From Triparma columacea (lineage: Eukaryota; Sar; Bolidophyceae; Parmales; Triparmaceae): a DNA stretch of 43,070 nt. Positions within the stretch are counted from its first letter, which is position 1. Each line of letters opens with the position of its first letter. Under the pieces are notes generated by a model. The model was given only the letters and a program-made list of their open reading frames with translations, was not told where the DNA came from and ran no database searches. Positions 5,028 to 41,343 of this stretch are shown here, in pieces. The position numbers and the translations under genes are program-made. The DNA is taken from positions 1 through 43,070 of the forward strand of contig BRYA01000331.1 of assembly GCA_030267965.1 (NCBI GenBank), read 5' to 3'.

Positions 5028-8000
5028 TTACACCTTCGGGGGAGGAGGAGGTTTCTTCTTGGGTGGCGGGGGAGGTCTCTTCTTGGGAGGTCCCGGCGCC
5101 TTGACTTTCTTCCCACTCTTGCTAATCAATTGCTCTGGGTGGTCCAAAAGATCTTTGTCCAACCCAGCCGCCTCAAGCCTCTTGATCAACTGCGGCAACG
5201 GAACTCCAAGCTTCAGCATCTTGAATATCTTTGCGTAATCGGGGTGGTCTTGTGCCATGACCAAATCGTCGTCATCCTTCTCCGTCTCTTTTTCCTTCTC
5301 CCCCCCCCCTCCCTCCTCCTTAATCTCCATCTTCCCGACATCCTCCCCGACATCCTCCACCACGTCCGATTTCTTCTTCTGAGGTGGCGGAGGCGGCGCT
5401 TTCTTGCTCGGAGGGGGTGGCACTGTCTTCTCGCCGACTCCCTTGCCCTTCGGGCTCATCGCCGACGGAGGCGGAGGCGGCGGCCTGCTGGCCTGCTTGA
5501 CCTTGGCAGGAGGAGGGGGGGGCTTCGCCACTTTACTCCCTCCATCACTCCCTTCCTTCTTCATTGGAGGGGGTGCCGGAGGAGCCACGCTACCCCCGGC
5601 CTTACTCTGACTCTCACTTATGCTCTTGAATGTAGAGCTTATGTCCTGGCTTCCAATCACAAAGGCGCTTCCCAACCTATCCAACCTGCTCAACCCCCCG
5701 AAGCTCCCCACGCCGCACACCGCGTAGTTTCCTGCTGCCGCCTGGACCATTTCCAAACTAGCCTTGTAGACCTTGTCACTCGTCGTTGGGAGCTTGTTGA
5801 AGGTATTCTTGGTGCTGCTCATTACTAAGTTGCCCAATCCGCTCGCCAACTCCTCCTGACTTGCGCCCTTTCTCAAGCACACCGCGCCCAAATGCAGCAG
5901 GCTAGAGACGGTCTCGGTCTTACCGTACTTGACGGCGGTCTTGTAAGCCTCAACAAAGATGTCCGTGTGATTCTTCAATTCACACTCCTCCACCAACCAA
6001 GTTGCCACCTGTTGGTACAAAGTTTCGACCTCCATGCCCTCCAGGTATCCCTTCAAAATAGGACCCAGTCCCTCCCCGCCCAGCAAACTTCCCTTCCCAC
6101 ACTCGCTTTGCAGCGACCTGCAGACAGCAACGCTCTCCACCGTGGGGGGGCAGCCACCATTCTCTCCCAGGAAGGGTGTTAGAACAATCATGAGCCAGAC
6201 GAACCTTAGGTCCTTCTCGCATATGCCCTCGCTTGGCTTGGCCTTGGTCAAGCTGATCAAGACCTCCCTTGTCTCGCTCGCCACCCTCCTGTCCTTGCTC
6301 AGTAGTCCAGGCACCAAAAGCGGTACGACCCCCTTGAAGCCCTCCGGTCCGTACTCCTTTGTGCTGGCCACGAGGTTCTCGAACACCTTGTCCACGCCGC
6401 CCTTACTGTTGAGCAGCCTCGCGAGCAAACCGAGCCCGTACTCGAAGAACCTCATGTCATATCCACTAGTTCCACTCCTGAGAAGCGTAAGGCTGATCCA
6501 AATGAGGCTGGGGCTCACCGTGCTCGCCTCAACCTTCTCTCCCATCACCACAGTCAGCGTAAATAGACTGCTAAGCGCTGCAAAGCACTTATTCATGAGG
6601 TTGAACATTGCTATGGATTTCACTCCACCTATTCCCCCGTCCATCTCCTCTTCGAGCATGCCGAACAAAAAGGCGCACTCCTTCGTGAGGCCGTTCAACG
6701 TTCCGATACCAGCTGGCGTCCCGATAACGCTGTACATGACGTGGGCCTTGAGAGTGGAAGAGTAACTGTCATTGCAGTGAAGGGCCCAGTTGAGCACCTC
6801 CTGCCCAGTCTTGGCCCTCAAATCCGCCAGACCGTCCGCCAAACAATCCAACACCTCAATGACAAATGACCTGGGGTCCACAGCGCCGAAGCTCTTGGCC
6901 TCGCAGATGTCGGCCACTTTGGTGGCTCCCTCCTTGATGGTTACTCCGGGGTTGCTCAACATGGCAACCGACGAGGACCAGTCGAGGACCATGTGTTTGT
7001 GCTCCTTCCCCGCCTTGAGCAGGGCAATCAGCCCGTTCGTTTTCTCCGCCATCTCAGCACTAGGCTCCTTCCTGCTGCTCTTGAGGGCGAGAGGCTGCAA
7101 GCTGGAGAGGAGGTTAAGTAGCAGCGTGGGGATGTTCTTGTACTGGACACTTGCGACGCCCCTGCTCGCTGCGCTCTCGTCTCCTGTCTCAACAAACCTA
7201 GTGGCAGTCGGGTACTTGAGTAGACTGAAGCAGATAATGGAGGGGAGAAAGGGGAGAAGGGGGTTGAGGTCCACCTTGCACAGGCCTGCCAGGAGAATCA
7301 CGACACTCGTGGCCTGCAAGGCCCGATCCTCGTCGCTGTAGACCTTAGCTGCCTCCCCGTACTGCATCTCGAAGGTGAGCGGGAAGGTGAACCAGCTAGC
7401 GCACTGCACAGGGAAAGCCTTGTAGCAAACGAGAGCAATCTGCTGACAGACACCCATGTTCTCCCCGCTCTTGGCGGTCACGTAGAGAAGGAAGCTAACT
7501 ACGGCGTGGACGTTGGGGTCTGCGGCCTTTCCTCCCCCTTCGGCGCCTATCTTCATGAGCGGCTTCCACATGAACACGCACTCGTTGTTGTACTCAACCG
7601 GGATCCTGCAGCTCAGGTCAAAGAGATTGTTAACGAAGTTCTCTCCTGTCTCTGTCAGCTGTTCCTTGCCCTCCTCCGTGAGATTAATCTTGGAGCAGAA
7701 GGGGCCGAGGAGCAAGGCGGTCCAGTGGTATCCGCCCCATTCACTCCTCGGTTCCTCACTTCCAAAGACGGCCTCAAAGAAATCGTCGATTTTCCCGACG
7801 CTATTCAGACACTCGGCAATCTGGGTACATATTTCAAGCCCCTCTTCATCCAATGCGGCCGAGCTCTCGGCGCTGAAGGACATGTGGTGGATCTCCATGA
7901 GCTTCGCGAAGTCCTGCTTCATCGCGGTCATGTAGTCAACTTTGCTGCCGTCTACGGTCCTGAGCTTCGCGATCTCCCTCTCCATGAGGTTGAGCACACA

Positions 8001-11000
8001 GACCCTGACGACCCCGAAGGCCCTGTTCCTGATAACGTAGTCGGGGTCCCTGAAAGCCCTCAAGCACATGAATAGGAGGTCCATCTCAGAAAGCTTCTCG
8101 CAGTCGCCGCAGGTAAAGTTCTGGGCGCCAAAGACCCTTCCCTCGGCGACGGCGCTCGCCTCGACGGTGTCTATCTCTCTCTCTTTCATGCTTCCGAGGT
8201 CCCTGCTGTTCGCCCACTTTGAAATCTTGTTGTAGTAGGCCGTGCTGTCCTCTGTAACACTTGTCCCGGGGGGCTTGGGCAGCCTGAAGGAAGGAACAAT
8301 CTGGTCGGCGAGTCCGTTAAAGATCCACTTCATCTCCTCCCTCCCGGTGCTGTAACAGCGTTTGATGAAAGGGAGCCCGAGCTGTTCCGTGTGGTGCGCC
8401 AGGAGCCAAGCGAAGCAGTCCTCTCCTCCTCCGCTCTTTTCCGCGGCGAGGAACCAACTCAAATGGAAAGGGGACTCCTCGGAGAGAAGCTCTCGGACGA
8501 GCCTATCCAAGCCGTTCTTGGTCATCACAGGGCCCATCTGAGCCATCTTCCCCACCGCCCTGCAGGCGTAACGGAAACAGGCCTTCTCCTCCTTCCTCGT
8601 CAACTTGATCCTGGCCCTTACAACAGGCAACGTGGAAATGCTCCAGCCCCGAGCGTCATAGTCGTCGTAATCGAGGTCCTCCGAAGGCCACGTGTGGCAG
8701 CTGCGCAGCCACTTGTAGAGGAGCTGGAGCTGCTCGGGGCTGTACTTGCAGTAAAACTCGAACTGAGATTTTCTTGACTCGCCCTGGTTTAGGTAGTTGG
8801 ACTTGAGGATGGCGGTCGCTACTTTGTCGACGAGGATGCAAATATTGAGGACGGTGCTCCCCGGGGTGCAGTTGACGCCAGGTTCCCACTTCAAATCGAG
8901 TACGTCGCCGCTCGTTGTGATGGTCAAGTAAAGGTTCGCAAGCTCCTGGTCCTTGACGAGAGCCTCGACGAAGCCGTCGCACTCGCTTAGAATTCTTAGC
9001 ATCTTGATCACCACCGTGATGTTCATGACCTTGATCTTGTCTTTCTTGGAGGTATACCACTTCCAAAGGGAGCGCGTGACGGGGCCAACGGCGTCGCCAG
9101 AGGCTGCCCTCACAGCGTTCTCGAATTTGGAGACCCACATGTCCACGGGGTCCGATCTCTCGAGGAGAAGATCCCATATAGTGTTAAGGTACTGCTCGAG
9201 CTTCTCGAGGGGGTTCGCGTAGTAACCTAGGGCCCATTTTCCCCCCCCGGTCGCTCCGGCAATGTCGAGGTGCTCTCCAGTCTCGTTGGATATATTGTTG
9301 GCTAGTGAAAGAGTGAGCTCAATCTGCGACGCCCATAGCTCGCTGTTCTTGATGTGCTTGCTGAGTGTCTTCTCCCTCACCCCTCCGTCAGTGAGATGCA
9401 TGTAGAGCTGTCTCCTTGTCTCCTCCATGACGCTGGGGTGAGCCTGCTGCACTACCCTCTGGGCAATGACGGGGAGGGCGAATCTCCAAATGGTGAAACT
9501 CATCTGGCTGACCTTCTTGAGAGGAGGGGCCGTGGTAGCAAAAGCGGTGGCAAATGGGTCCTCGATGCCAGCCGCGCTATCGACCATGTACCTGTAGAGG
9601 GCTCTCTGGACAATGTCGCTGCCCTCCTTCTCGAGGAATTCCTCCACGCAGTAGCTCGTCTTTCCGGTAAGGAAGTCGCTCTCGCTAATCCTTTTTTCGT
9701 TGTCAGCGAATTTCACGGAGAAGATGAGCTTGAACTGGGCCTGGCGGAGGTTTCCAACCTCTTCCAAAACGTTGAGGGCGAGGGATCGGATGCTTGCCTC
9801 TTCGTTGCAGAGGCAGATGACGCACGCTGCCTCGGTACGGGCGGTCCACTGGGGGTAGGCGGCACCATCCAATTCAACGACACCTTCGTCATCAGCGGCG
9901 ACGTTTTTGGTTCTGCCGTCTGTGCCATCCTTGACAAAGGACGTCCAGAGCTTGAGGATATCGTAAATGATTGTGAGCATGGAGGTCACCTTCACCTTGT
10001 CATCGAGCGGTGTGTCAGCCAAGTTGAGGACGAGGTCTGTGAGGAGATTAGTCCTCTTTTCTGGTTTGGCCTTGAGAAGGCGCTGGAGAGACTGCGAGAA
10101 GGAGGGGGGGGGGGATTAGGATTAGTTTCATTCAACTTCAAGGCGTATTTCAACCCAAATATTCTCACTCGCCACTCTGCAATCTTACCTTGATGAAACC
10201 CTTGGAAATATGGCTGTACGCGTGGTGCATGAGCTTTGCCTTTATGAGGGTAGTCGTCAAGGAGTAGTCAATGAAGGGCAGGGCGTTGGTGATTTCCTGG
10301 AGAATCTGGAGCTTGTTGTTGACGTCTTCCTTGAGGCTTGAGGCGCGGAGGATGTCAACGTACTCGCCGGAGTCCAAGATGGAAAAGGTGCCTGAGGGAG
10401 TCTCCGCGTACCCGACGTTAGCGCATCCGACGTCCTTGAGGAGGAGGGGTAGCACCTCGGGGATGGAGCGCGAGAGGAGGGAGGAGAGTTCGTGCTGGAT
10501 CCCGGCCATGGCGTCTAGGAGTGCGTTGGTACGGGTAGTGGCCGCATACTTGGCAAAGCCGGACATGGGATCCAGAACGATCCTCACGGTGCGCACGCCA
10601 ACGGCGAAGAAGTCGAGGAACTTGTGTGCCTTGTAGTCGAGAATTCCGCGGATAAATGAGGGTGAAAGGGAGTTGGAGGAGATGGTGAGCATAATCTCGG
10701 CGCACAGGTTGGCGACAGTGCACATTCCCTTGACCTTTTTCATGACCTTCTTGTCAAAGAGTTGCATCTGAATCCATACCAAGCTGTCGGGGCGAAAGAG
10801 GGCGTCCTTGTACTGTTGTTTGGGGGGGGGGGGGGGGGGGNNNNNNNNNNNNNNNNNNNNNNNNNNNNNNNNNNNNNNNNNNGTCGTGATTGCGCTTGCA
10901 CAATACTCGTTAAATTGTATTTTCTTCTCTCACTTACCTCCTTGAATTCAGGCATGATGCAGGAGTACTTGTGAGCAACTTCCCTGACGCCCCGCTTGAA

Positions 11001-19100: not shown

Positions 19101-22073
19101 TCAAATAATCCCGTCTTTAAGGGTGACCTCCGTGAAGGCGTCTCCTCCATCCTCATCCTTGGCCTTGTTGAATTTCTTCACCACCCCCTCGCTCCTTAGA
19201 GCGTCCCTGATCTTCCTCTTGAGTACCCCCTTGCTCCCGTGTCCGTGCAAAATGAATACCGTGCCCCTCCCCGCCCTCATCTGCGTTGAGAACATGTCCC
19301 TGCACTTCTGGATGCCGTCCTCGACGTCGAGCCCTCGGACGTCGCAAGTGTTCGAGTCCATCCTCATCATCGTTCCGTCCTTCCTCTTCCCGCTCCTCAT
19401 GTCCAGCAGCCCGGAGTCGCCCGCGGACCTGAGGTCCTCCTCCACCCTTTTGCTGATGCCCTGTTTCCGACCCTCCTTAACCCTCGTCCCTCCGTCGTCG
19501 CCTCCTCCCTCCCCCCCTCCACTTTCGGCCCTTCCCAGCTGCCCCTTGCTCATCCTCGTGCTGATCCCACCGAACTGAAGCTCGACGTTCTTCCCGTTGT
19601 CCTTGACGACGGTCCCCGTCCTCCCCGCGAAAGCTCCCTTGAGCGCAAAGAGTGCTTCCCCCATGCTCACCTCCTCCGTGTCCTTGAGTGGTTGAACTTC
19701 TCTCGTTTCTCCAACTGCCCTCCCCACCCCTGCCCCCACGACGCCCCTCTCTGGCCCTACGTCCCTCTTCATGACCCTTAGTTCCCTCCAAGTGTTCCCC
19801 ACAACCTTGACCCCGTTCCTCTTCCCCCCCTCCGTCATCTTCTTCATATCCTCCATGATGCCCTCAAGGATTTTCTCCTTCTCCTCCAGCTCCCTCCTGA
19901 ACTCCTTCGCCACCTTCTCCCTAGCGTTCCTCTTCACCCTCGCCAGCTCGGCCCTCTCTGCGCCCAGCCTCTCCTTCTCCTTCTCCGCCTCCCTGACCTT
20001 TTCCCGAAGCTCATTCCCCCCCTCCACCGCCTTTATCCTCTCCTTCTCCAGCTCCTCCAGCACCTCCCCTATCCTCCTCCCCTCCACCCCCATGAGATCC
20101 TCGGCCCTCCTTACTACCCTCTCCCCGAGCCCCACCCTCTCGGCAACCTTGATGGCGTAGCTCTCCCCCACCCCCTCCAGTAGCCTGAAGGTCGGTCCGT
20201 CCGCCCCAAACTCCATCCTCCCAACCCTGAACCTCTCATCCTTAACGGCCAAGTCCTTAACCATTTCAAAGTGTGTAGTAGCCACGATCCTCGCCCCCTC
20301 GTTGCTCGCGATATCTTCCAGCACCGCTCTCCCAATCGCTTCCCCCTGTCTCGGGTTAGTCCCTCCTCCCACCTCGTCCAGTACAACCATCCAACTTCCC
20401 CCCCCCCCCGCCCTCCCCAAAGCCTCAGCCTGTCTCCTTAAGCTCCCTTCATAAGTACTCTCCCCTCTCTCAATGCTCTGTTGATCCCCCACATCACCCG
20501 CAACCCCATCAAACCAGTCAACCCTACCCCCCGCTTCCCCCAGTACCGGTATCCCGTCTCTAGCGCATAGCGCTAGTAGTGCAAAGGTTTTCATAACCAC
20601 CGTTTTACCCCCCGCGTTCGGGCCCGTAAGTACAAGTCCTTTATTCCCCTCCCCCACATTTAAGTGGTTACCCTTTGCGCCTTTAATAAGAGGGTGTCTA
20701 CAATCCCTAACGCTCACAACCCCCTCATCCCTAACCTCAGGTATACACCCGTTCTCCCTCTCCATATACCTCCATCTACCTCTCGCACTATCCACCTGTG
20801 ACATTGCTTGAACGTTCCTTTCAATCTCATCTCTCCCGTCTAAAACCTTCCTAGTAAGCGTAGTGAATATCCTGTTAATCTCCCTCTCTCTCTTCACCCC
20901 TAATTCCCTCCCCAAATTCCCCAGCTCAACGACTTCATACGGTTCAACATAAACAGTTAAACCAGTCTTCGATCTACCGTGTACGACACCGATGGACCTC
21001 ATTGTTGTGGGGTTAACGGATACACACGTCCTACCGTTAACCATGGTTACACCTGAACCTACACCTTTCGAAGAGGAGGAGGAGGAGGGGTTGGATTTTG
21101 AGAGGTCCTTTATTACACGGGTTATCGTGTCTTGGATTTTACGGGTGTTGGACTTTATACGGATCTCTATGTCTGCTAGGTCCTTGTATTTTTTACGGTT
21201 TATTTCACCGCCTTCAAAACTCTCCTCCAGAAGTTCCACTAGACCTACGTCTACTGACATTATAGAACCAGCACGATCCCACAATACGGGTGAGTTGGTA
21301 CGGTTTTTAATAAGGAACTCACACCATGCTTTGAAGTGTAATAACATGTCGAGCACATCTGTGAAATCCTGTACCTCTATTATCGCTCGGTTCTTCAACC
21401 TTGCTGACTGAATAATCTTAACCGCTGAGAGGTCGTTTGTTGATTTAGGTAGTTGATTCGATGGTTGGTTTGAGGTGCTGAAGGTCCCGTATTCCTGTAC
21501 CATTTGGTAGAGTTGTGAGGCCTGGTCTGGGGTACGCGAGGTTTGTAATCTGTCTGTTATTAAGGTCTTCCCATATGAGGTTATGCAGTTTGAGGCTACG
21601 ATTGAGAGGAGGGTGTTGTAGCCTAGTACGTTGTGGAGGAGGGTGTCTTGGGTGCTTGTGTTGGGGTTATCATTGTCTCGTGCGTGGGTTGTGTTCGCGT
21701 CAGTGTTTACATCATCTCCTCTTCCATGCTCTCTATCCTCATCTCCTCCTCTTGTTCCTAAATCCTCAATAGTTTTTAATGTACCTCCTATTTCTGACAT
21801 ATTCTCATCATAACCAACGCGCAGATAAGTTTTATAACGTCCATAACCCAAGTCATAAGGCGATTTAAGTGGAGGTTGTGGAGATTGAGGAGATTGAGAG
21901 TGAGGTGAGAAGCTACCTCGGGGAAATGATGAAACACTTTTAGGCCTTAAAACACTATTTAGGCCTATACTTGATGATCGATACAAAGTATTATCAACAT
22001 TTGATGATAGGAACAAATTGAAAGCAGAACATGACGATAATAGAGAACTTAGGGACACAATCAGGAAAACCAT
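19101..22073 (-). CDS. mutS2: MutS2 family ATPase/Smr protein, probably plastid-targeted
   Basis: Single-exon gene of 990 residues starting MVFLIVSLSSLLSSCSAFNL. This is a signal peptide with Phe just after the likely cleavage site, the hallmark of plastid import in secondary red-plastid algae. The MutS core lacks the mismatch-reading N-terminal domain, as MutS2 does. The Walker A TGPNAGGKT is at about residues 482-490, the ABC-type signature region (STYEGSLRRQ) at about 540, and Walker B VVLDEVGGGTNP at about 560. A coiled-coil clamp region follows, then a C-terminal Smr domain (about 905-990) with CDVRGLDVEDG and HGHGSKGVLKRKIRD. Bacterial and plastid relatives act in suppressing recombination or splitting collided ribosomes; which applies here is unknown. 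The 5' third is AT-rich and the 3' two thirds GC-rich with G-runs. The first ~47 codons and the promoter are duplicated at 26962-27425. Confidence 0.92.
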   Translation of the reverse strand: MVFLIVSLSSLLSSCSAFNLFLSSNVDNTLYRSSSIGLNSVLRPKSVSSFPRGSFSPHSQSPQSPQPPLKSPYDLGYGRYKTYLRVGYDENMSEIGGTLKTIEDLGTRGGDEDREHGRGDDVNTDANTTHARDNDNPNTSTQDTLLHNVLGYNTLLSIVASNCITSYGKTLITDRLQTSRTPDQASQLYQMVQEYGTFSTSNQPSNQLPKSTNDLSAVKIIQSARLKNRAIIEVQDFTDVLDMLLHFKAWCEFLIKNRTNSPVLWDRAGSIMSVDVGLVELLEESFEGGEINRKKYKDLADIEIRIKSNTRKIQDTITRVIKDLSKSNPSSSSSSKGVGSGVTMVNGRTCVSVNPTTMRSIGVVHGRSKTGLTVYVEPYEVVELGNLGRELGVKREREINRIFTTLTRKVLDGRDEIERNVQAMSQVDSARGRWRYMERENGCIPEVRDEGVVSVRDCRHPLIKGAKGNHLNVGEGNKGLVLTGPNAGGKTVVMKTFALLALCARDGIPVLGEAGGRVDWFDGVAGDVGDQQSIERGESTYEGSLRRQAEALGRAGGGGSWMVVLDEVGGGTNPRQGEAIGRAVLEDIASNEGARIVATTHFEMVKDLAVKDERFRVGRMEFGADGPTFRLLEGVGESYAIKVAERVGLGERVVRRAEDLMGVEGRRIGEVLEELEKERIKAVEGGNELREKVREAEKEKERLGAERAELARVKRNAREKVAKEFRRELEEKEKILEGIMEDMKKMTEGGKRNGVKVVGNTWRELRVMKRDVGPERGVVGAGVGRAVGETREVQPLKDTEEVSMGEALFALKGAFAGRTGTVVKDNGKNVELQFGGISTRMSKGQLGRAESGGGEGGGDDGGTRVKEGRKQGISKRVEEDLRSAGDSGLLDMRSGKRKDGTMMRMDSNTCDVRGLDVEDGIQKCRDMFSTQMRAGRGTVFILHGHGSKGVLKRKIRDALRSEGVVKKFNKAKDEDGGDAFTEVTLKDGII

Positions 22074-22395
22074 TTTTATGACTCAATTTAGGGCACTGAT
22101 TTGGCACCTGGAGGAGCATTTGAAAGACTAATTTCAGCGTGAAAATGCGACGCGTCGTGATAATATTTTCAATTATCAGTAGAAGTATAGCAGCGCTTTC
22201 GTGGGTTTTTTCGCAATTAATTTCTGAGGTCGTGAAAGTATCTAAAAATAGTAATAAAACAAGAGATGGGGTCGAATAGACCATGCGCAACGACGTAATT
22301 AATATGACTTTTTTGGAACTAATAATGACGGAGCTCGTTTTATATTTCCCTGCCGTTTTGAGATGGCGACTGCAAGATTATGGGCATTCATTTGT
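21932..22395. repeat. 464-bp direct repeat, copy 1 (MutS2 head and promoter)
   Basis: This segment matches 26962-27425 at a constant offset of 5030 bp and roughly 90% identity by eye. Several small indels cancel out. It covers the first ~47 codons of MutS2 (minus strand), the intergenic region, and the first ~37 codons of the plus-strand small ORF at 22283. The match ends sharply after GGGCATTCATTTGT. No terminal inverted repeats or target-site duplications are evident. Confidence 0.95.
22074..22282. promoter_or_regulatory. Putative bidirectional promoter upstream of MutS2
   Basis: AT-rich 209-bp region between the MutS2 start (minus, 22073) and the small plus ORF at 22283. It is well preserved in the second copy at 27104-27312, including GGGTTTTTTCGCAATTAATT and AAACAAGAGATGGGGTCGAA. 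Conservation of non-coding blocks could reflect either recent duplication or constraint. Confidence 0.45.
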
Positions 22396-22666: not shown

Positions 22667-24442
22667 ATGCCTCGAGAATCACAGCGCACACATGTTCCAT
22701 CAACTCGGCTAGAGGGGTTCGACTTAGCAGACCACAGGAGGGGGTCGTCAGACAGAGTACGTATCCCCCCCCCCTTATTCCTAATCGTCAAATACTCACC
22801 CCCCTTACTCCTTCCCCACGTTTCCTCTAGGCTAAGGGGAGGAAGACTATTAGGAACAAGGCGAAGAAGAGGGCCTATGATAAGATACGCTACCAGGTAT
22901 GTATTCCCCTCTTTTCATCCCTTATCGTCAAATACTCACCCCCTTGCTCCTTCCCCACGTTTCCTCTACAGACCGATGCGTATAAGGCGAAGGCCAAGGA
23001 AAGGAGGGAGGTACGTATCCGTTAACATATCCCCCCTCCCTTCCCACATTCAATCGTCAAATACTCACCCCCTTGCTCCTTCCCCACGTTTCCTCTACAG
23101 ACCGATAGGTATAAGGCTGTGTCAAAGGCATGGAGTAAGGTGCGTATCGTGTAACATATCCCCCCTCCCTTCCCACATCCAATCATCAAATACTGACCCC
23201 CTTGCTCCTTCCCCACGTTTCCTCTACAGAAACGTGCTGCTAACCCGGAAGTCAGCGCGAAGTTCAGGGCGAAAGACAAGGCGAGGAAGGAGGTACGTAT
23301 CCTTTAACATATCCCCCCGCACTTCCCACATGCAATCGTCAAATACTGACCCCCTTGCTCCTTCCCCACATTTCCTCTATAGACCGCGGAGTCCAAGGCG
23401 AAGGCCAAGGAGAGGAGTAAGGTGCGTATCGTGTAACATATCCCCCCTCCCTTCCCACATCCAATAGTCAAATACTCACCTCCTTGCTCCTTCGCCACGT
23501 TTCCTCTATAGAAACCGGGTAACATTGCCAAGGCCAAGGAGAGGAGTAAGGTGCGTATCGTGAACATATCCCCCCTCCCTTCCCACATCCAATAGTCAAA
23601 TACTCACCTCCTTGCTCCTTCGCCACGTTTCCTCTATAGAAACCGGGTAACATTGCCAAGGCCAAGGAGAGGAGGGAGGTACGTATCCTTTAATATATCC
23701 CCCCTCCCTTCCCACATTCAATCGTCAAATACTGACCCCCTTGCTCCTTCCCCACATTTCCTCCACAGAAACGTGCTGCTAAAGCGCGGAAGGAGCTCAC
23801 CGAGAGGCTCGAAGTCGGGGTGCAGCGCAACGTTGAATGCGGTGTGGAAAAAGGTGACGTCCGTCTTGATGCTTATTGGCGGTCTACGTCACCGTCTTGC
23901 GCATGTTGTTACACATCTTCGTCCTAAGCTCACTAAACGCAACGCTATTCACTCCCCACAGGAACCGCGAAGGCGAGGCAACATCTTAACAGCGGGTACG
24001 CGGTGATCGTATTTAGCTCTTCTCTTCTTACCCGCGCGAATGAGATCAGGTTGAACACCAACAAATTGGAGGCGAATTGGGACGAGATTTATGGAAGGGG
24101 GGCATGGGCCCGTGAGATGATGAAGAACGAGGTGAGAATTCGCAAGAAACGGGAAAACACGGGGGAATCTTAACTCACATCTGGTATTTGTCATTACAGG
24201 TCGAAAGTGTATTTTTTCACGTGTTCGAATTGGATGGACACAACGGGGAGTATCAGAGTGGTACTGGAGGCATTGCCTCCTTGGAGCCATGCGGGTTCGT
24301 TCTCGGCCGCAACGCGGAGAAGGACATCGTTGCCGCTATTGGGAAAGATGTCCTGGTGAACGCGTATGCTGGTGGCGCGGGGAAAATTCCTATTGACACC
24401 AGGTACGGGGCGGTTGAAATCCTTGTGGTGAAGCTGAGGTAA
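22667..24442 (+). CDS. Unknown basic protein encoded by a tandem exon-intron array
   Basis: Eleven exons join in frame: 22667-22756, 22831-22896, 22972-23010, 23101-23139, 23230-23292, 23383-23421, 23512-23550, 23640-23678, 23769-23853, 23962-24131, 24200-24442. Total about 303 residues. Exons 3, 4, 6, 7 and 8 are each exactly 39 nt (13 codons) and exon 5 is 63 nt; all array introns are phase 0. They encode a Lys/Ala/Glu/Arg-rich helical repeat (T-D-A-Y-K-A-K-A-K-E-R-R-E and variants such as K-P-G-N-I-A-K-A-K-E-R-S-K). The C-terminal ~160 residues are ordinary globular sequence ending GAVEILVVKLR and I do not recognise them. The ATG at 22667 is the first in frame. An alternative last splice (donor 24439, acceptor ending 24530) would add nine residues. 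Basic helical repeats suggest nucleic-acid binding, but that is inference only. Confidence 0.75.
22757..23768 (+). repeat. Tandem array of eight related introns with 39-nt exons (unit about 129 bp)
   Basis: Introns at 22757-22830, 22897-22971, 23011-23100, 23140-23229, 23293-23382, 23422-23511, 23551-23639 and 23679-23768. The last six are 90, 90, 90, 90, 89 and 90 bp. They share a donor GTACGTATCC or GTGCGTATCG, TAACATATCCCCCCTCCCTT, a branch-point-like AAATACTSACC about 40 nt before the acceptor, and CCACGTTTCCTCTACAG. Neighbouring introns differ at about 7 of 90 positions, while neighbouring exons (for example exons 3 and 4) differ at about 11 of 39. The first two introns keep only the 3' half of the consensus. 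Confidence 0.95.
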
Positions 24443-36730: not shown

Positions 36731-39700
36731 TTATGCACTTCCCTTGCGTTGATCCCCCCCCTTTAATTTCTTGGCATCCTCTCCTTCCTCCTCCCCCCCA
36801 CCAATCTCCTCCATTTTTCTCTTCGGGCTCACCTTCCCCTCAGCCTCTGCGCCCTCGTCCCCTTCGCCACCACCTATTCCTCCCCCCTCCTCCCCCTCAA
36901 ATCCCCCTCCCAGTCCCCCCCCCTGCCCCCCCCTCGTACTCCCTCTCCCCCCCTCGTAGCTCACCCCAAGCCGTTCCCCCAGCTTCCCAACCACGCTCCC
37001 GCTGCTATATTTCCTACTCACGGTCCCGAGGTTGACGTTGGCCTTGCTCCTCCCCGTGATCCCCACTAGCGCCCTCGCGCAGGCCCCCGCGTTGCCCGCC
37101 AGGTCACTCAGGTTCAGGCCGCTCGGGCTCTCCGGTGTCTTGCCCGGCTCCGGGGTCTTGGGGGCCGAGGAGGACCCTCCCGTGTCGTCGACGGTCTCCC
37201 CGCGGGCGAGGGCCTCCAGGCGGGCGCGCTCCCGAGCCTTTCTCTCCATGGCCTCCTTGGCGGCGCCGCCTATCACCTTCTTCTTCTTGCCCCCCCCCCC
37301 GATCTTTATGGATCCCCCGCTCCCCTTGTCCTTCTCCGTCTTTCCGTACCCTCCCTCGAGCACCGCGACCATCTTCCCCCCGCAGCAAACGTCTGAGATC
37401 TTCCTGATTATCCCCACCGCCCACGCGTAGTCCTCCTTGCTAAGGTCCAGCCCCACGCTCCCGCTCCTGTTGGCGTCCCTCTTGTTGCCGATGTCCCCCT
37501 TGCTTCCGTCGAAGCCCATGCTCAGCAGCACGAGGTCTGGGTTGAAGGCGCGGAGGCTCGGCGCGATCCGGGACACCAGCTCCCTCCTGAACGCCGCCTT
37601 ACCGTACTGGTCCTCGAGGACCTTGTTGTGACACTGCGATGAGCGGGGCGATGAGGGGATTACGTTAGTGGGTTAATTTTGTTGCGTGGGGTTGGTTGGG
37701 GCAAACATTTAGTTGAAGAGTACCAGTCAGATGCGGGAGCATTTCGATGCTCGTGACACCACCGCCGCTGTTGCTCCGTCTGATTTCGTTCCGTATCTCT
37801 CACCTCCCACATCGGCGGGATCCCGCAGTTGACAATGTTCTTCTCCAGGTCGTCGCAGGCCCCGCTGCCTGGGTAAAAGTTGGGGTCGTAGATGTGCGCG
37901 CTGGCGAAGAAGATATTCTCCGGAACGTCCATGTGTCTCACGATCTCCTCCGTCCCGTTCCCGTGGTGAACGTCGAAGTCAACAATGGCCACCTTCTCCA
38001 CCCCCCCCACGCACTCGAGGGCGTGGAGGGCCCCGACAGCCACGGAGTTGAAGATGCAAAAGCCGCAGCTCGTGCTGCTCGCGACGTGGCCCTTCCAACC
38101 GGCGTGGTGCCCGGGGGGGCGGACGACGACGAAGGAGTTCTTGTACTCGCCGGCGCACACCTTGTCAATGGCGTGGATGACACCCCCCGCTGCCCTGAGG
38201 GCGGCGTCGAGGCTTCCAATTGAGAAGCTGGTGTCGCAGGTGCTCTAAGAGCGGCGAGTAAAGTGAGAGCGAAGAGCGGAGAGAAGCGCGTTGGTAAAGG
38301 TCTTGTTGTTAGTGTTGCCTCTCGTTACATTGCCTTCCCTTTTTCCCTTCCCCATCTCCTCACCTCCTCCTTGAGCCTCGTCAGTCCCTCGACGTCCTTC
38401 TGGACCCTCGGCGTGAGCGCCTCGATCTTCATTTGGCTCCTTGGTGTCTTGGCGTAGAAGTCCCTGCTCATCTTGTGCACCATGTCCACGTAGCTCCCGT
38501 GGTGCGCCCTCCTGATCTGGAACATCGTGGCCCTGTCAAAGTCGGAGGAGAACTCCAGCTCCCCCTTCTTGAACTCGCCCCGGAGGCTCTTCATGATGGC
38601 CGGGATCCTGGCCGGGGCCTCCTGGTGCCCCTCGACTGTGATGTGGCGCTCGCAGTCGGGATGGCTGAGGACGAGGGTCTTGCAGGGGGCCTCCGCCCAA
38701 AAGGGGGACCTGTCGCCGGTGCAGATGTCGACAGCGGCCTCGCCACGCCGGTTCCGGGCCCCGACCCCCATCTTCAGACCCAGCAGGTACTTGATAACCT
38801 TGGACTGGTTGAGGATGGCAGCCCTGTGGAGGGGGGTGTCCCCGTTGGAAGCCGGGCCGTCTAGCTTACCTCCCGCCGCGGCCCAGAGCTGGAGGCCCTT
38901 GACGCTGTTGACCGCCGCGAGCCAGTGCGCCCCCGTGAAGCCCATTGTGTCGAAGGTTGACACCATGCCCACCACCCTGCCCTCGTGCTGGAGGAGGAAC
39001 TCGAGCATCTCGAGGCCGCCTGAGCCCTCGACGAGGCTGCAGCAGACGACGAGGGGGGGCTCACTAGAGTTGTCGTCAGGAGAGGCATCGCCGCTCACAG
39101 GGAGGCAGACAGGGAGGGTGTCGGCCTGGATATCAGATAGGAGCTTGGAGACTCCTTTCACGTTAAGCTTCTTCACCTCAGCGTTAATGGCTATGCGCTG
39201 CTGAATCTCCCCAAAGGTTAAGGTGAACGTTGAGGGAGGTGTCTCGGGTACTGCTGAGGCGATCCTAATGCCCTGTGTTTGGAGGTTTGAGGGTGAATAA
39301 GGGGGTTGAAAAGGGGTTGAAAAGGGGTTGAAACGGGGATGGAGAGGGAATGATGGTGACGGAAAGGGTGGTGGTGATAGCAAGGGTGGTGTTGATGAAT
39401 TTGGTGATGAAAATGTCGTGAATGGGTGAGTATAAAGGGGGTTAGGGAGGGGGGTGGCGTTGGAGTGTTGTGTTTTGTTCAATTTTTGGACGAATTTGAC
39501 GATAAAATAGAGAAAAAATACGATATTATGAAATATATCTATACATATCACCATCAATATACATAATATTACTCACCCCTACACCCTGGATGCCAGGAAA
39601 GCGAGGACTTGGAGGCGGGGGCATAAGGCTGGCCGAATTTTGGGAGGAGCTTTCTGATGTTGCAGAGGACGGGCCCGTTGAAGATGCATTAGAGGAGGAC

Positions 39701-40076: not shown

Positions 40077-41343
40077 ATGTCAGCCCTAAAGCCCTCCTCC
40101 CTCCGAGTTTACACCTACAATGTCCTCTCCTCCCACCTCTCCGAAGCCACCCACTTTCGCAGTTGCCTTCCCGCCAACCTAGATCCTGAGACCCGTTTCT
40201 CTCGCTGCCTAACCAAGCTCGACAAGGAGTGTTCCAGGGGCTCTGTGATCTGCCTCCAGGAAGTCTCCCGCACCTGGGAGGGCCGCCTGCACACTTTTTT
40301 CGACGAGAGGAAGTACAGCCTCGTCACTGGAATGTACGGCCGCCGCTTCAACGGCTACATGGGTGTCGGGATCGCCTACCCCCGTGAAATGTACGCCATG
40401 AAGGCGTGCGAGGTTGATGTCTTAGCGGACCGTGAGAAGTGGCCCCTGGACCCTCGTCCCCCCCCCCCCGGGTTCCTCCGCAGGTTCGTGAGGTCCGCTC
40501 TCTCCCTCTTCCCCCAGCGCCTCCTGGGCTCCCTCCACCCCTCCTCCAAGGGCCCTGAGTGCCCCTTCGAGCTGGCCTCCAGACGCTCCAACATCCAGGT
40601 GTCCCTACACCTCTCGCCCCCGACCTCCCCGGAGTCATCCTTCGCAATTTCAACCTACCACATGCCCTGCGCCTTCCGCACCCCCCAAATGATGGCGCTC
40701 CACTCTTCCCTCTCCGTCCGCAACCTCCAGGAGCGCGCTAAGGAGTGGGGGGCGGGGAGGGCGGTCCTGGCGGGGGACTTCAACCTCAAGCCGGACAGCG
40801 GACTTTACAGGATGATTACCACGGGGGAGTGCCCGAAGGACGATAAGGAGACCTACCCGCTGAAGAAGGGAGTTGAAGGTGAGAGGGCGGTGGGGTGGGG
40901 AGGGGGCGGGGGGGGAGCGAGGATTGCAGCGAGGAGGATTGCAGCGAGGAGGAGCGCAGCGAGGAGGAGCGCAGCGAGGAGGAGCGCAGCGACGGCTTTG
41001 ATATAACCTCGCTGTCGATTCACCTTTCAGCCGACCTACCACTCAACCCCCCTCCCCATCCACCTTAACAGACATAGGCTGGTCGCCTCGAATTGGAACG
41101 GGCATGCAAAGCTGCTACGCCCTCGCTCACCCTGGGGGCGAGCCCCCCTACACGAATTACGCCCAATGCCGGAACGATCCCGTCTTCATCGACACCCTCG
41201 ACTACGTGTTCATCAGCAAGGAGGGGTGGGAGGTGGTGGGGGTGGATGGGGTGGGGAAAGTGGAGGACGCAAACGGACCGCTACCGAACGATAAGGAACC
41301 AAGCGATCATATTGCGATCGCGGCGGACTTGAAGATCGCTTGA
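40077..41343 (+). CDS. Endonuclease/exonuclease/phosphatase family nuclease (CCR4/PDE12-like)
   Basis: Two exons (40077-40878 and 41072-41343) join in phase 1 to 357 residues. EEP catalytic landmarks appear in order: RVYTYNVLSSHL (Asn, about residue 15), VICLQEVSRTW (catalytic Glu, about 61), FAISTYHMP, AVLAGDFNLKPDSGLY (Asp/Asn, about 236) and EPSDHIAIAADL (Asp-His, about 345). EPPYTNYAQC followed by FIDTLDYVFIS is typical of CCR4-type deadenylases, Nocturnin/Angel and PDE12. The likely substrate is RNA poly(A) or a related phosphodiester (family knowledge, not proven). There are no leucine-rich repeats or obvious targeting peptide. A Pro-rich insertion (PRPPPPGF) lies in the middle. Confidence 0.85.
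40917..40992. repeat. 15-bp minisatellite inside the EEP intron
   Basis: GCGAGGAGGAGCGCA and GCGAGGAGGATTGCA units repeat about five times in the 193-bp intron 40879-41071. Because units are 15 bp, intron retention would read in frame as an Ala-Arg repeat (R-S-A-A) before a stop at about 41004-41006. Confidence 0.8.

Follow-up and report, generated by a model that had tools for sequence, protein, structure and literature searches.

Introduction

Near-identical introns lying between repeat exons that differ from one another are a pattern known mainly from spider silk genes. In the flagelliform silk gene the introns are reportedly more homogenised within species than the exons, and Hayashi and Lewis (2000) are said to have ascribed the exon change to mutation and recombination inside the repetitive exons. 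In Argiope MaSp2 the mean identity is 97.6% for introns and, in the MaSp2.2 paralogues, 93.5% for coding units, and the authors of that study state that they were aware of no other eukaryotic gene with two alternating types of homogenised intron (PMC9779670). Introners, or introner-like elements, are a second related class and represent near-identical spliceosomal introns in several copies per genome (e.g. PMC4457414).

This study was concerned with TrCOL_g5288, a gene of Triparma columacea, a marine unicellular alga and stramenopile of the order Parmales. The window, meaning the whole stretch of DNA that was analysed, is 43,070 nt long, and the gene lies at 22667..24442 on its plus strand. 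The original prediction placed a series of tandem exon-intron units at 22757-23768, and these coordinates are exact, since intron 1 has its donor at 22757 and intron 8 its acceptor at 23768. Our favoured reading, to which we assign a probability of about 0.58, is tandem exon-intron duplication with concerted evolution, in which old exon variants were retained. Nothing about such an intron array in Parmales was found in open-licence papers, and the paper on the Parmales genomes (PMC10328945) does not use the word "intron" in its main text.

The closest described case is that of the iterated homogenised introns of spider silk genes. TrCOL_g5288 resembles the flagelliform gene in its tandem exon-intron units and is nearer to the pattern reported for that gene than to MaSp2, although the flagelliform exons are large glycine-rich repeats and the exon variants of TrCOL_g5288 look old. 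MaSp2 (PMC9779670) is similar in that repeat-coding exons alternate with near-identical introns in one gene, for which unequal crossing-over was proposed, and in the partial alternation of two intron types, which in TrCOL_g5288 run A B A B B A and concern the 5' end only. It also differs in several respects. First, MaSp2 coding units are homogenised too, whereas the exons of TrCOL_g5288 are far less alike than its introns. Secondly, introns 3 to 8 of TrCOL_g5288, at 86-100% identity, are less alike than the 97.6% of MaSp2. Third, MaSp2 is a silk protein, whereas TrCOL_g5288 is a protein of basic 13-aa modules from a unicellular alga. Because its A/B types are seen only at intron 5' ends and the alternation is broken at unit 7, we do not claim a second case of alternating introns.

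Gene model and protein

The product spliced by hand from the GT/AG ends is 303 aa long and equals the deposited protein model. According to PMC10328945, T. columacea was annotated with BRAKER2 using protein hints and without RNA-seq, so this match is an agreement of predictions only. The spliced translation begins at the ATG of exon 1 (22667..22756, 30 codons). Downstream of the array, exon 9 (23769..23853, 85 nt), whose first 14 nt are those of exon 5, is followed by intron 9 (23854..23961, 108 nt), exon 10 (23962..24131), intron 10 (24132..24199, 68 nt) and exon 11 (24200..24442), which includes the stop codon.

The protein consists of an N-terminal row of basic 13-residue modules and then a C-terminal domain, which begins in exon 10 and is common to a paralogue, TrCOL_g4245. 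No Pfam family matched it at E up to 1, the HNH nuclease domain being absent at that threshold, and the sole match in a PDB sequence search was the glucosidase 2 beta subunit (E 0.17). An AlphaFold2 model from a two-sequence input had a helical repeat part but a mean pLDDT of only 49, too low to support a fold search. The modules are probably helical. Basic helical modules of this kind suggest nucleic-acid binding.

Other features of the window were also recorded. A long MutS2-like ORF with MutS domain V and an Smr domain lies upstream of the array gene in the opposite direction (19101-22082, minus strand). A 1,695-aa ORF (5028-10115, minus strand) has a Pfam match to CCDC53, a WASH complex subunit, and a proline-rich end. 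Short-period tandem repeats unrelated to the array are found at 97-257 (24 nt), 39302-39395 (11-22 nt) and 40926-40992 (15 nt).

Introns of the array

All eight introns had been predicted to derive from one sequence. This holds for introns 3 to 8, which are 86-100% identical. Intron 1 (22757..22830, 74 nt), with a mostly distinct 5' part, and intron 2 (22897..22971, 75 nt) share the GTAYGTAT donor with the rest and are otherwise clearly similar to them only in the last ~48 nt. Introns 3 (23011..23100), 4 (23140..23229), 5 (23293..23382), 6 (23422..23511) and 8 (23679..23768) are each 90 nt long, and intron 7 (23551..23639, 89 nt) is intron 6 minus one base. The 5' ends of introns 3, 5 and 8 are of type A (GTACGTATCC in intron 3) and those of introns 4, 6 and 7 of type B (GTGCGTATCG in intron 4). 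From introns 3/4 to introns 7/8, adjacent introns differ at 7, 9, 11, 0 (plus one deleted base) and 12 sites, and this mean of 7.8 of about 90 agrees with the predicted 7 of 90. Introns 1 and 2 depart further from that figure, differing from each other at 10 of 73 sites, with intron 2 differing from intron 3 at 12 of 75 plus a 15-nt gap. Tandem Repeats Finder gave the array scores of 589-717 (three rows).

Every array intron has GT...AG ends and a TACTSAC motif followed by 31-32 nt, which we take to be the branch point by analogy with yeast TACTAAC. In-frame stops are present in six of the eight (introns 3 to 8) and frameshifts in introns 1 and 7; intron 2 is the only one both open and divisible by three in length. 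Because seven of the eight thus carry an in-frame stop or a frameshift and all eight carry TACTSAC, the array blocks are likely to be spliced introns, judging from these sequence signals. The motif is absent from introns 9 and 10 of the same gene, and neither of these resembles array intron 4 better than shuffled sequence does (102 and 113 of 200 shuffles scored at least as high). Noncoding RNA within the introns was considered and rejected, the four Rfam matches all lying on the minus strand and far below the gathering score.

It is very improbable that the array contains no introns and is an uninterrupted tandem coding repeat of 43 aa (129 nt). An unspliced frame from the same ATG (22667-23467, plus strand) does stay open for 266 codons and encodes 43-residue repeats, probably fortuitously, given a unit length divisible by three. 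However, this frame stops in intron 6, and intron 7, with its 89 nt, disrupts the frame of the units. Variation at the 16 variable intron sites is not concentrated at third codon positions of the unspliced frame (4, 6 and 6 at positions 1, 2 and 3), and the C-terminal domain conserved in the paralogue is reached only by the spliced frame. The GT...AG ends and TACTSAC in all eight blocks also speak against a coding repeat.

Exon and intron divergence

The predicted exon lengths, 39 nt with one of 63 nt, are correct for exons 3 to 8 (39, 39, 63, 39, 39, 39) and miss exon 2 (22831..22896, AKGRKTIRNKAKKRAYDKIRYQ), which has 66 nt. Exons 3 (22972..23010, TDAYKAKAKERRE), 4 (23101..23139, TDRYKAVSKAWSK), 6 (23383..23421, TAESKAKAKERSK), 7 (23512..23550, KPGNIAKAKERSK) and 8 (23640..23678, KPGNIAKAKERRE) each encode one 13-aa module, exon 5 (23230..23292, KRAANPEVSAKFRAKDKARKE) is longer, and all are bounded by introns. 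Because the exon is 39 nt long with phase-0 borders, units can be gained or lost without a frameshift. Copy number is therefore frame-neutral as predicted, by virtue of the exon and not of a 129-nt unit, since intron 7 has 89 nt.

The five 39-nt exons are 46-95% identical. With unit 5 left out for its 63-nt exon, the mean pairwise difference in units 3, 4, 6, 7 and 8 is 0.32 for exons and 0.08 for introns, a divergence gap of 0.15-0.33 (bootstrap 95%, by column), which bears out the prediction that the introns are more alike than the exons. Exon difference is 0.46 in the first 18 nt and 0.20 in the remainder. Among 129 circular shifts, the exon frame has the highest 39-nt mean, tied with four others.

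Similarity drops abruptly across the 3' splice site, from 93% mean identity in the intron ends to 50% in the next 14 exon bases. The upstream intron ends are identical at 39-45 of 45 positions in all 21 pairs, while the exon 5' ends (14 nt) agree at 12-14 of 14 positions in three of 21 pairs and at 4-9 of 14 in the other 18. Because the exon pairs split in this way, the exon starts represent discrete types.

Adjacent exons had been predicted to differ at about 11 of 39 sites. This is the case for exons 3/4 (11) and 6/7 (10), whereas exons 7/8 differ at only 2. In exons 7/8 the contrast is even reversed, the exons being 95% identical and the introns after them 87% (12 of 89 sites differ), and the introns after exons 6 and 7 differ by one deleted base only. 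These anomalies are due to one duplication, 23401-23546 / 23530-23674. Because the duplicated block spans mid-exon to mid-exon, comparison in the exon register inflates the exon difference.

Duplication and exchange between units

The stretch 23401..23546 and its other copy, 23530-23674, are identical at 145 of 145 aligned bases with one deletion, and they overlap by 17 nt of exon (23530-23546). This is the one clear recent duplication, an unequal one, and it ends within exon sequence. In addition, five sites (exon positions -3 and -2; intron positions 3, 10 and 12) share the pattern A B A B B A in units 3-8. The block of A/B variants crosses the 5' splice site in all six units, or in five if the recent duplicate is counted once. 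The proposal of gene conversion restricted to introns is thus not supported, because the duplication broke inside an exon and the linkage of variants extends over the 5' splice site.

A four-gamete test covered each intron together with the last 9 nt of the exon before it and 12 nt of the exon after it. In the full region 58 of 153 informative site pairs fail, 46 of them involving the poorly alignable next exon. Without the next exon, 12 of 55 pairs fail against a mean of 39 after column shuffling (0 of 1000 as low), and with unit 7, the recent duplicate, also removed, there are 12 failures among 28 pairs, the shuffled mean being 16.7 (80 of 1000 as low). Since failures are fewer than in shuffled columns but present, the blocks are linked and yet mosaic; recurrent mutation may explain part of the failures. 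Similarity of exon ends was positively, though not significantly, related to similarity of the adjacent introns (Mantel P 0.086 and 0.096).

An assembly artefact, with collapsed or invented copies, is highly improbable. Tandem unit number is prone to mis-assembly, above all in the near-identical stretch of exons 6 to 8, but many sites distinguish most of the units. The same units are present in the deposited protein, whose scaffold is listed at 108,071 bases (the contig here has 106,902), which is weak independent support because that protein probably comes from the same assembly.

Modules and their relatives

A profile of the two Triparma proteins, used to search public sequence sets (scoring covered the 7,993 candidates that had the most words in common with it), reached four further proteins at E 3.4e-4 to 6.5e-3. 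These have 13-residue repeats and then a cysteine/histidine-rich part, and one of them matches Pfam HNH below the threshold (E 0.0035). Another search, with P0005, one of the four, yielded 486 proteins (P0005 among them) at E up to 1e-6. The HNH-linked set used below (P0003-P0124, mostly from metagenome sources) draws on the 120 of these 486 matches that were listed. We know of no family name for such HNH-linked 13-aa repeat proteins. In 65 of the 122, those whose HNH start was located by script, agreement was 0.36 at lag 13 and 0.05-0.13 at other lags from 5 to 15. P0005 itself had no match in the 37.85 Mb of T. columacea genome searched.

The module consensus of the HNH-linked proteins, xPE[NY]KAKxKERxx, is in register with the 39-nt exons. 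Exons 3, 4, 6, 7 and 8, which are related and not independent, all scored best in register 0 (shuffle P 0 to 0.0075), and three modules of TrCOL_g4245 gave the same register (P 0 to 0.0015). The register was poor at the end of exon 2 (P 0.12), the end of exon 5 (P 0.25) and the start of exon 9 (P 0.58), and an inner stretch of exon 5 fits the module (P 0.0055). These scores may owe something to a lysine/arginine bias common to both sets. The five exons have a mean mutual identity of 6.5/13, and the within-protein family mean is 6.0/13 (62 proteins, 1,088 pairs), raised by the choice of family units with a P[EGD] anchor that fixes one residue. The likeness thus lies in basic 13-residue modules in the register of the 39-nt exons. 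TrCOL_g5288 differs from the HNH-linked proteins in having no Pfam hit and in its C-terminal domain, which was found elsewhere only in TrCOL_g4245.

A viral origin of the 13-aa module was considered and rejected. P0005 alone had no relative among viral contigs, and TrCOL_g4245 had none there. An alignment of 14 HNH proteins, from among the 120 listed, found 78 loci in viral contigs. Of these, 32 were checked, and in 16 of the 32 the part ahead of the first C..C was of measurable length. None of the 16 had a 13-residue period above 0.2, so the repeat was not traced to viruses; lag 13 was the best in two of them, at 0.11 and 0.16.

The paralogue and the age of the exon types

Of 182 candidates, two proteins carry the C-terminal domain, TrCOL_g5288 itself and TrCOL_g4245 (256 aa), and no further one was found. 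TrCOL_g4245 is 64% identical to TrCOL_g5288 over residues 150-303 and 54% overall. By eye it contains TDAYKAKAKARRK (TDAY), AVSKAW and KPENIAK in the order of TrCOL_g5288, where AVSKAW is in exon 4. The context of AVSKAW differs, being a KPEN module in TrCOL_g4245 and a TDRY module in TrCOL_g5288, and sequence alignments of both proteins leave the two AVSKAW stretches unpaired.

From these protein sequences, the exon types seem to predate the split of the two genes. The array introns are about 92% alike and would therefore have been homogenised, or have arrived, after that split. The introns look unusually young or homogenised because the exon diversity is close to that of the HNH-linked modules and the exon types recur in the paralogue. 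A strict count in codons for the same residue found 11 differences over 31.3 synonymous sites (0.35), compared with 0.08 in introns, a contrast that is not significant (bootstrap P 0.12; 13 codons only). It is suggestive only of exon synonymous sites being older than the introns, and for this reason the claim of older exons rests mainly on the paralogue protein.

After KAKK, TrCOL_g4245 also has PLQI in place of the lone R of TrCOL_g5288, and the ends of introns 2-4 (CCTCTACAG) would, if translated, read PLQ. Perhaps, as a hint and no more, PLQI reflects a mis-predicted acceptor or an exonised intron end. A search for TrCOL_g4245 DNA in 37.85 Mb returned four matches in TrCOL_g5288 and, on contig C676, a weak one interrupted by two stops; the 25.7-kb scaffold of TrCOL_g4245 probably lies outside the sequence searched.

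Selection on the exons

If whole exon-intron units had simply been duplicated in tandem not long ago and the exons had then changed quickly under positive selection, tandem units with shared introns would also result, and the stretch of exons 6 to 8 did come from a recent duplication. Codon listing confirmed that seven of the eight differing codons between exons 3 and 4 change the residue, as this reading would have it. However, about 80% of the sites in that pair are nonsynonymous (31.3 of 39), so seven of eight is near the null expectation. Pooled NG86 estimates over nine of the ten exon pairs, with exons 7/8 dropped as recent, were dN 0.41 and dS 0.78, the latter drawn from a small number of sites and from codons that had changed more than once. 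Because dN is below dS, positive selection is unsupported, and the predicted selection for exon diversification is also at odds with an exon diversity about that of other 13-aa-repeat proteins. In addition, the exon 5' ends fall into discrete types and not into graded mutation, and the types appear older than the paralogue split. We regard duplication followed by selection as quite improbable.

Origin of the introns

Copies of the introns were sought in 37.85 Mb of the T. columacea genome in 789 contigs, about 88% of the published 43.0 Mb (1,858 scaffolds, BRYA01000001-BRYA01001858; PMC10328945). These DNA searches scored the best candidates only and skipped very common words. With intron 4 as the query (87 nt), all eight matches were within the array; with a 27-mer of the 3' core at up to three mismatches, all seven were; and the six matches of a query from exon 1 to intron 2 were all in the array gene. 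A 21-mer of the 5' end had five matches in the array and two three-mismatch matches on other contigs, against three for a reversed control. At the protein level, the matches of the C-terminal half (three) and of the repeat part (four, E up to 1) in 37.85 Mb were all inside TrCOL_g5288.

The genome search called for by the original prediction thus found no convincing copy outside the array in 37.85 Mb, which points to a local origin. By their sequence signals all eight introns are spliceable GT-AG elements, and they resemble introners in being near-identical. They differ from them in that the copies found lie in one gene, at repeat borders. Since such borders recur themselves, any target-site duplication there would be difficult to distinguish. 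The array is not a genome-wide introner, because no convincing copy was found elsewhere in the 37.85 Mb, and an introner in the multi-gene sense, with copies in unrelated genes, is not borne out.

One intron may instead have been copied recently into the borders of an intronless 13-aa coding repeat in this gene only, by gene-conversion-like copying or as an introner yet to spread. Several observations agree with such local gain. The similarly diverse 13-aa-repeat proteins are continuous predicted proteins in metagenome contigs, the exon types are common to a diverged paralogue although the introns are about 92% alike, and fresh insertion would also give a sharp border at the 3' splice site. 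However, no convincing further copy was found in 37.85 Mb, and repeated insertion at the same codon border needs a site-specific mechanism. Introns 1 and 2 share mainly their 3' half with the others, unlike whole-element copies, and the linkage of variants on the two sides of the 5' splice site suggests that blocks of exon and intron were exchanged together. We rank local gain second among the readings and hold it to be unlikely. Its stricter form, site-specific copying or overwriting of one spliceosomal intron at each border of an ancient intronless repeat in a single gene, is doubtful; if true, introns could be faithful to protein-module boundaries without a genome-wide introner.

We infer homogenisation over recent insertion, and under duplication with concerted evolution the history would be as follows. 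The modules would be old and would have split into TDxY, KPxN, AVSKAW and AKAKxRR types before TrCOL_g5288 and TrCOL_g4245 separated. The exon-intron unit would then have multiplied in TrCOL_g5288, with unequal crossing-over or gene conversion moving sequence between its copies. The tracts exchanged would have spanned the introns and, in many cases, the 3' portion of an adjacent exon, which is why the introns would have become near-uniform through concerted evolution while the 5' exon blocks kept their old types. The 13-codon exons with phase-0 borders would have made the gain or loss of each 39-nt unit frame-neutral.

Conclusions

TrCOL_g5288 is a compact case in which introns seemingly evolve in concert but the intervening exons, here of 39 nt, do not. 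Its host, a unicellular stramenopile, is distant from the spiders in whose silk genes such introns were described. It also indicates that the contrast between exons and introns can be inflated by duplicated blocks that span mid-exon to mid-exon. Lastly, a diverged paralogue in the same species makes the question of homogenised versus newly inserted introns decidable by sequence alone, and this question bears on how introns come to mark protein modules.
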